Origin: Owenia fusiformis
Lineage: Eukaryota > Annelida > Polychaeta > Sabellida > Oweniidae
NCBI GenBank assembly: GCA_903813345.2
Contig: CAIIXF020000012.1
Coordinates: 14,056,932 to 14,120,931 of the forward strand
Direction: 5' to 3'
DNA: 64,000 nucleotides
Shown here piece by piece: positions 51,301 to 63,510 of the stretch. The position numbers and the translations under genes were made by a program. The notes under the pieces were generated by a model. The model did no database searches and was not told where the DNA came from. It worked only from the letters and a program-made list of their open reading frames with translations. Within the stretch, counting starts at the first letter, position 1. Each line of letters opens with the position of its first letter.

Positions 51301-54300
51301 TTCCAAACAGGAAATGCTGAAAAGAAACTGTTTGATAAATTTCTGTAAAAACTGTCTATATTGAACATGCCTTTGGCAAAGAAGTTTTAATAACATTAAC
51401 GACAATGGAATAACACAGAATGAATTCAATTAATAGAAACCAAATTTTGATCAAACACAAGTTTTCTTCAGTGTTCAACATAAATGTAATTTTGTTACGG
51501 ATGCTACTGTAGACATTTAAATAAAACATGTTCTTTGAAAAATTTAACATCACAAGATCAAAATAATATTAAGATGTGATTCTACTACGAAAAGTTAACT
51601 CAAAATATGACATGTATGTTCTGGAATTGTAGATGTTTATTTTTGACAAAATCACTGATGCCGAAATCAAAACTCATCAGTTTGAAATCACTGGCACCAC
51701 ATATGCCCCAGAGGGTGAAGTGTAAGTCTTACTTATATACTCCTGTGTCTAACTGAGTGATTAAGCCCCATTATTGAAGAACATGTACGGAGGTCCATTA
51801 TTTCAGTGAACTTCTCATAAAACAATCATCAACTTTTTTCAAAGTCAATTGTTGTCTTACTCAGGCATTATCATGGTCACTGTATTGACAACAATTGTGT
51901 GAATTTTTTTAATGTTTTTCGATAAATAGAATTCAAGCTAGGTTCCTTTGAACTATATTGTCACATAAAGGTGTCCATTGCATAACATAGATTCTTAAAA
52001 GAGATGGAAATATGGTATATGTTCTTGATAAAGGGGCTTAACACATCAGTTATTATTACTGTCAGAAGATGTGACAGTCTTGCACACAGACTCCAGAAAT
52101 GTTTCCATTTAAGGTGACCATGATCCGTTTACATTGGCCAGTCACCTAATTTGAGATGTTTTCTTGAGTCTGTGTGTTTGATTGGTTGATATACCAAATC
52201 TGATATAAACCTGCATATGAAAATGGACAAACAGGTGTTGTGCCTTGCTCACCTTAAAGCAATGGAAATGTCAAGATTTGGTATATCACATCTAGCCTTA
52301 AAATTTTGTAAGAAATCATATGTAAAATATTGTATATGTTACCATTTTAGATGTTCGTTTTTGATAAAATTGAAGATAAACAAATCACAACTCACCAGTT
52401 CGAGATAACTGGATCAACTTATGCTCCCGATGGAGAAGTGTATGTATTCACCAACAGAGGGAGCTTTGACAAGGGAGAAACTAATATTTTATTTTCATAT
52501 TCAATGGGGGTGGGACATAAGATGGAATTAAATTAAATGTAACTGAAGAAATATAAGATAAAATATTAGTTCTCTCATGTTAAGTTGTTTGCTATTAGTT
52601 CCTTCTGTACGAAATGTTTGATCCTTGTCTGAAAAAATCAGGAATGTTCCCTGTTTTCATAATTAACATAATCACCAATGATTGACTGCCCATATTGACA
52701 TTTTTATTTCAGAGACACCCCCATATTATTAATAATATTTTAGCTCCACCCATATCCACCATATTTGGAGTGATTGGCACCTGCATGTTATGATGATTGA
52801 CACCAACCAGGAATGAACTGACTGATCTTCAGATATTCAACTTCTGGATCCCTTAACTTATGTTGATTGTTTAGATGCATCCATTGTTCATCCCTAGTGC
52901 TGTGTTGTGTTGTGTTCTTGTTACATTCATATTCTATTATTTCTCTCCTCGTAACATTTCCCCTCCTGAGTTTGACGTCATGACATCATTTGATGCAATA
53001 GAAAGAAGTCTTCAGATTTTCTGATTTCTGAAAAAGGCAAACTTCTCTATTGCATTAACTAATACCATTCCAGTTTTGTTATAATTATATACTGTGTTGA
53101 ATTCTTGTCTAATTTCAGTACAATATATTTTATTTACGTTTTGTATATATGTACAAATACAAGTAAACACTCAGTCACATGCATTGCTTGCTCTAACGAC
53201 TGGTTAATACCACAGTTCTTACAATCTTTGAAAAACTTGCACCTTTCCTTTCCAAAATATAACCCATTTTCTATCGTAAATAACTCGCCGCTCCTCTTCA
53301 AAATATATCCCATAATTTCAATGTTCCCATTGTTTGATTCCAAGATACAACTGGGTTTATCATGATTGTTTCTGTAATTAAAGGTACTTGGCATCCCATC
53401 CATCAGAATCGAGGTAATATATGAGAACCCTTGTTGTCTGCTGCAAATAATATTGCATTATGGGTATTTTGTACTGAGTCTCCATCTATTTGTATTTCCC
53501 TTGCACCTAGGTACTTTTACTTTAGGTGCAATTAATTATATAGGTTACTCCTTGCATAATTAATCTTAGGTCACTTTTGGTGAAAGGCTTAATATTTTGA
53601 GGTCCAACAATATCTCTCAATTTAGCATTACAAGGATCAAGAAGTATCTCCAAATAACAATTTATGTTATACCATTATTAAGAGAGAAATATGTTTGATC
53701 ATCAATGGTACTTTGTCTCATATATTTCCTATTATATAGCATCTCCTTGAGATATCTTATTCCCAACTTTTAATTAATTTGGGTGGTTTTTTATATACAC
53801 ACATCATCAACTAATTTATCATAAGATGTTACATTTAAATATAGGCATAATTCTAAATTGCTTTTTAGGGGTTCTCATAGCTTAGCACATGATCTATATC
53901 ACACTCTCCTTGCGGTGGTGTTATTGTATGCTGTGGTATGATGGGATTCCTACACTTCCTTTATTCAAGAGTAACCTTCCCAGCATGCATTGTTTCCCTT
54001 GGTGGTGGTTGCTATGGCAATAAAACACATAATGACAAGAGGACTTTTTATTTTTTTTAATTACTGAATAGTGGAAGGTATCTACATTCTTCAGTATTAG
54101 AATTCTCGGCTATCAGGATTTGTGGGTATCAACATTTTGGGGTATAAAAAATTCATTAAAGATATAAGAATTTGTAGGTATTGAGATTCTTGAGTATGAA
54201 GAATGCATGATTCTGAATACACAGTCAAGACAGTGTTATATATCAAATAAAATAAAAAGAGAGGTCCTCTATTTTATTTTCCCCTTTTTATTCCAAAAGT

Positions 54301-63510: not shown

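Follow-up and report, generated by a model that had tools for sequence, protein, structure and literature searches.

A SERCA gene of Owenia fusiformis with four probable clusters of mutually exclusive internal exons

The window analysed here is the whole stretch of 64,000 nucleotides at G000:C12:14056932-14120931 of a 498-Mb assembly. It is spanned almost entirely by a single gene on the + strand, whose start codon lies at position 220 and which crosses the right edge to end near +76.4 kb. For the delineation of its exons, tblastn was performed with a rabbit SERCA1 sequence as guide, after which the splice sites were placed by hand; exons were found in order from position 220 to the right edge, and then in the neighbouring DNA to approximately 76.4 kb. 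The resulting gene model has 22 exon positions and only GT-AG splice sites, and every spliced product is 1018 amino acids long. Seven Pfam matches to domains of P-type pumps were obtained for the spliced product, six of them above the curated cut-off and one (HAD) just under it, and the phosphorylation motif DKTGT is encoded in exon 9. For a 142-aa piece, the closest relatives were SERCAs and not SPCA, PMCA or Na+/K+ pumps: the closest solved relatives, SERCA1/2, scored 280-283 bits, and the pump ranked after them 137 bits. Judged by its domains and closest relatives, the locus is an animal SERCA (ER/SR Ca2+-ATPase) gene.

A genome search with exons 17-18 and exons 8-9 as queries gave SERCA-grade identity (87-97%) at this locus only. 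The other matches to these queries did not exceed 67% identity and resemble different P-type pumps, and the four matches of an exon-20 query all fell inside the SERCA gene. The search is able to miss weak matches, such as a stray fragment elsewhere, and the single-locus count holds at that sensitivity.

At the far end of the gene, the last exon appears to encode a hydrophobic tail behind the pump core, similar to the additional helix known from SERCA2b. Beyond the window, near G000:C12:14133255 in exon 22, GT(AAAA) follows directly after KFTDG and might serve as donor in the classic choice between SERCA tails.

Table 1. Exons of the SERCA gene and candidate pairing stretches of group 11. Positions are those of the window unless given otherwise; residue numbers refer to the spliced protein, here in step with rabbit SERCA1.
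Feature	Remarks	Position	Strand	Basis
exon 1	coding part, start codon 220	220..337	+	tblastn, hand-set splice sites
exon 2		596..613	+	hand-set splice sites
exon 3		3653..3735	+	hand-set splice sites
exon 4		23272..23376	+	hand-set splice sites
exon 5		31625..31763	+	hand-set splice sites
exon 6		38516..38682	+	hand-set splice sites
exon 7		42300..42366	+	hand-set splice sites
exon 8		50698..50870	+	hand-set splice sites
exon 9	DKTGT motif	51065..51289	+	hand-set splice sites
exon 10a	89 nt, residues 366-395	51633..51721	+	tblastn, splice sites, simulation
exon 10b	89 nt	52351..52439	+	tblastn, splice sites, simulation
candidate docking stretch, group 11	weak support; before exon 11a	53870..53975	+	RNA pairing
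exon 11a	103 nt, residues 395-429	54700..54802	+	tblastn, splice sites, simulation
candidate selector	weak support; before exon 11b	54980..55029	+	RNA pairing
exon 11b	103 nt	55113..55215	+	tblastn, splice sites, simulation
candidate selector	weak support; before exon 11c	55280..55329	+	RNA pairing
exon 11c	103 nt, copy most like rabbit SERCA1	55401..55503	+	tblastn, splice sites, simulation
exon 12		56796..56910	+	hand-set splice sites
exon 13		57111..57253	+	hand-set splice sites
exon 14		57541..57759	+	hand-set splice sites
exon 15		58056..58178	+	hand-set splice sites
exon 16		58380..58592	+	hand-set splice sites
exon 17		58877..59097	+	hand-set splice sites
exon 18		59421..59623	+	hand-set splice sites
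exon 19a	86 nt, residues 842-870, luminal half of TM7	59957..60042	+	tblastn, splice sites, simulation
exon 19b	86 nt	61033..61118	+	tblastn, splice sites, simulation
exon 20a	134 nt, residues 871-914, loop L7-8 and most of TM8	61888..62021	+	tblastn, splice sites, simulation
exon 20b	134 nt	63377..63510	+	tblastn, splice sites, simulation
exon 20c	134 nt	G000:C12:14129236-14129369, outside window	+	tblastn, splice sites, genome search
exon 20d	134 nt	G000:C12:14129753-14129886, outside window	+	tblastn, splice sites, genome search
exons 21, 22		outside window, 3' of 20c/20d	+	gene model

Four exon positions are occupied by arrays of homologous copies, two for exon 10, three for exon 11, two for exon 19 and four for exon 20 (2x3x2x4). 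Length and phase are identical within each group, and all 11 copies are preceded by AG, followed by GT and open in the shared phase. Each of the nine in-window copies gave a separate tblastn match to rabbit SERCA1 (E 7e-5 to 1e-11); the matches of 11a, 11b, 19a, 19b and 20b overran the exon limits. A preliminary description of this DNA had reported nine tandem homologous exons of equal lengths and phases, with intact splice sites and open frames, in a 2x3x2x2 layout that would permit 24 pumps if the choices are independent. All nine were recovered, with AG/GT and the right phase in every copy, and the layout held for the first three groups. The fourth group was found to have four copies and not two, the two extra copies lying 8.3 and 8.8 kb beyond the window edge; because this edge cuts the group, the number of combinations is 48 instead of 24. 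Further exon copies were not found at the 83,069-bp locus with 29 exon peptides as queries (outside matches E 0.012 or worse; exon 2, with five amino acids, is too short). Donor position +5 has G in 15 of the 17 constitutive exons versus six of 11 alternative copies; in groups 19 and 20, five out of six copies have C. Copies of one group share ancestry, and these counts are consequently not independent.

None of the four lengths (89, 103, 86 and 134 nt) is divisible by three. When splicing was modelled, the 48 one-per-group choices all gave distinct full-length proteins. All 21 modelled inclusions of another kind (four skips, 11 pairs, five triples and the exon-20 quadruple, with the other groups fixed at one choice) led to an early stop that precedes the last junction by 109 nt or more. 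This includes the quadruple, though its length alone would keep the frame. The proposal that double inclusion disrupts the frame was thereby borne out for all 11 pairs. The lengths and the early stops also suit regulated unproductive splicing, in which one copy per cluster would be coding and the others would be poison exons, lowering SERCA mRNA via nonsense-mediated decay.

Criteria for clusters of mutually exclusive exons, as given in the accessible part of PMC3228551, are neighbouring internal exons of similar length and same frame, with conserved splice sites and homology. The four SERCA groups agree with these in length, frame and splice sites (11 of 11 copies) and in homology (50-76% amino acid identity). 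According to the same excerpt, shared length, frame and homology occur in only 90 of 16,180 fly X-chromosome exons annotated as not mutually exclusive, and 60% of human mutually exclusive clusters are stated to have lengths not divisible by three in the portion seen of PMC5740500. That portion also describes steric exclusion by a short intron, with less than about 50 nt from donor to branch point; judged by intron length alone, such exclusion seems unlikely at the SERCA arrays, where neighbouring copies are separated by 185 nt or more.

The copies of a group differ at 24-46% of their DNA, and third codon positions hold most of the differences. The proportion of synonymous differences is at least 0.80 in nine of 11 within-group pairs and 0.52 and 0.63 in the remaining two, while nonsynonymous distance ranges from 0.16 to 0.45. 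Amino acid identity is above the neutral expectation in all 11 pairs: under random substitution at equal divergence, none of 5000 runs both matched the observed identity and kept the frame open in ten of the pairs, and a fraction of 0.0008 did so in the other. The simulation, with no indels and a fixed transition bias, serves as a rough guide. In the 300-nt flanks of the copies no extended similarity was detected, only short repeats and matches from overlapping flank windows. Because synonymous sites are saturated (nine of 11 pairs), amino acid identity exceeds the neutral level throughout and the flanking introns are unlike, the exon copies are, by these measures, old and under purifying selection on amino acids.

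Conservation of the protein is not required of a poison exon, so the excess of amino acid identity and the concentration of differences at third positions count against unproductive splicing. Furthermore, Cys876, Cys888 and Glu908 (E38 of the exon) are kept in all four exon-20 copies, which fits coding use, and we regard the poison-exon explanation as very improbable. The copies could also be dead remnants of old tandem duplications, with one per cluster still spliced, and 11a and 11b are indeed less like rabbit SERCA1 than 11c, as are 20a and 20d compared with 20c. However, none of the 11 copies carries a stop, a frameshift or a broken splice site despite the synonymous saturation, and simulated drift, after which 25-61% of runs per pair still have an open frame, almost never retains the observed amino acid identity, so that loss of function in all but one copy per cluster deserves very little credence. 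An assembly artefact, in which alleles or paralogues were stitched together, had been named in advance as what could refute the arrays. There is no N across the 83,069 bp, the DNA difference between copies is far above that of alleles, the flanking introns do not resemble each other and the genome search gave no second SERCA locus to stitch in; an artefact is extremely improbable.

The arrangement is very probably that of a single-copy SERCA gene with four genuine clusters of mutually exclusive exons, as judged from the genomic sequence. The spliceosome would pick one copy per cluster, by tissue or stage, and wrong products, such as skips and multiple inclusions, would go to nonsense-mediated decay. 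In this way one gene could yield dozens of slightly different pumps.

Choice of exon 11 may be aided by a docking/selector RNA structure. The candidate docking stretch before exon 11a pairs best with the two candidate selectors before 11b and 11c (Table 1), at -41.3 kcal/mol each. The combined group-11 pairing score was reached by one of 61 dinucleotide shuffles and by one of 62 local block shuffles, in a test that followed an earlier hint. When the intron before 11a was scored with those before 11b and 11c, one of eight and none of eight shuffles, respectively, reached the score. These belong to six intron pairs scored out of 13 planned, the remaining seven including all five of groups 19 and 20; three of the six fell within their eight shuffles, and one stood at 0 of 2, with two shuffles only. 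Several points count against the candidate, besides the test having followed a hint: the docking stretch is richer in G+C than the surrounding introns (0.42 versus 0.32), a stretch at 52721 pairs equally strongly with the intron before 11c alone, and the group-11 pairing search gave no clear selector for exon 11a. The candidate pairing would be of the Dscam-type docking/selector class, and such control of exon 11 choice is weakly suggested. As in Dscam-type control (competing structures are discussed in PMC9013439), a candidate common docking stretch, here before 11a, pairs with stretches before other copies, whereas the SERCA pairing was observed in one genome and for group 11, with weak statistics.

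The number of variable residues is seven of 29 in exon 10, 17 of 34 in exon 11, nine of 28 in exon 19 and 24 of 44 in exon 20. Glu908 is presumably a Ca2+ ligand, and residues 906, 907 and 910 vary among the exon-20 copies; Cys876 and Cys888 presumably form a disulfide. TM7 and TM8 extend over residues 831-855 and 895-915, respectively, in the available text of PMC7313052, and exons 19 and 20, placed by residue number, swap the luminal half of TM7, the loop L7-8 and most of TM8. By the same placement, the choice at exons 10 and 11 exchanges the first part of the nucleotide-binding domain, and with it the surface around residues 397-400 to which mammalian phospholamban binds. The exon 11 copies differ at residue 397 (S/Q/K), the phospholamban cross-link site in the excerpt of PMC8184213, and at residue 400 (K/K/R). 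Cassette choice is predicted to leave catalysis the same and likely to tune Ca2+ affinity, turnover and partner binding. A further, tentative idea, to which we give less than even chances, is a combinatorial splice code, in which four independent cassettes (48 pumps) would separately retune the nucleotide domain, TM7, the luminal loop and the surroundings of Glu908 by muscle or stage, parallel to cassettes in myosin and Na+/K+ pump genes. Internal cassettes at four places would be natural swap experiments, tested by evolution, and show which stretches of the pump tolerate retuning, including residues adjoining a Ca2+ ligand.

SERCA ranks with the best-studied pumps of membranes, and gene copies and tail splicing are the usual explanation of its diversity. 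The preliminary description had assumed the same, and the open-licence literature agrees: among the matches listed, no SERCA with internal mutually exclusive exons was found in titles and abstract starts, although one may exist in print elsewhere. Most invertebrates have one SERCA gene with splicing like that of SERCA2, and some have extra gene copies, according to the part of PMC3527596 available. These isoforms, made by gene copies or 3'-end splicing (PMC3527596; Pinctada per PMC6987452, both in excerpt), concern the same family and likewise include one invertebrate gene diversified by splicing, but the splice diversity described in these excerpts is C-terminal while here it is internal and at four places. 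Tandem-duplicated exon events in PMCA of vertebrates, arthropods and nematodes are reported in the accessible part of PMC9741552. PMCA resembles the SERCA described here as a P-type Ca2+ pump with substitution of tandem-duplicated exons; it is, however, a plasma-membrane pump whose event is listed per gene family in that part, in contrast to four clusters in one pump, and SERCA and ATP2A have no occurrence in the text of PMC9741552. For Mhc, the available text of PMC3912159 gives seven clusters of mutually exclusive exons in Capitella, and the likeness lies in one gene with several homologous internal exon clusters and a muscle protein tuned by region. The Mhc variants, of another protein, are partly supported by cDNA/EST in that text, whereas the SERCA copies are known here from genome sequence alone. 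Clusters of this kind are already known; what is new, as far as seen, is the gene that has them, how many groups there are and where in the pump they lie.

Similar arrays were observed elsewhere in this genome. In a gene for a muscle-type myosin (G000:C9:37969326-37994334, - strand, loci L007-L009), a head exon of YSGLFCVVINPY type lies at 14 places, at least one of them truncated, together with eight copies of the exon around PHFVRCIIPNE and two each of the P-loop exon and the GNAKT exon; the copies were counted by ORF self-comparison of the region and are candidates by sequence similarity. This array looks larger than the lophotrochozoan clusters in the excerpt of PMC3912159, which gives few copy numbers. 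A Na+/K+-ATPase-like gene (G000:C10:26080363-26083692, + strand, L015) contains three full and one partial tandem copy of an exon of FSYYQEAKSSKIM... type, which may form another exclusive cluster. At G000:C5:23746001-23766000 (- strand, L017-L018), a pump locus that we take to be PMCA-like, a single pair of stretches resemble each other, with 44% identity. At the pump loci on C3 and C2 only repeats were seen, without overlap with pump matches, among the matches listed (14 of 16 pairs for C3 and all six for C2). Since one of four other P-type pump loci, that on C10, has such an array, tandem exon copies are not in every pump gene here. The arrays suggest that, in this lineage, exon copies take the place of gene duplication in diversifying several genes for muscle proteins and ion pumps.

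An alignment search for relatives of exon 20 gave none among viral contigs and one among contigs of prokaryote genomes (L012, JAIYDP010000003.1, filed as a Verrucomicrobiaceae MAG). The SERCA gene on this contig is broken up at several points by intron-like stretches, and each pump part was matched once in the contig's 10 kb, with no exon array. The contig probably stems from a eukaryote and was wrongly assigned to a bacterial genome bin.

Within the window, the motif GCATTATGGGAA (at most one mismatch) occurs at 16 sites compared with 0.54 expected, for example at 58343, 60476, 61789, 61821, 63143 and 63176, with copies standing pairwise before exons 20a and 20b. It is probably a dispersed repeat.
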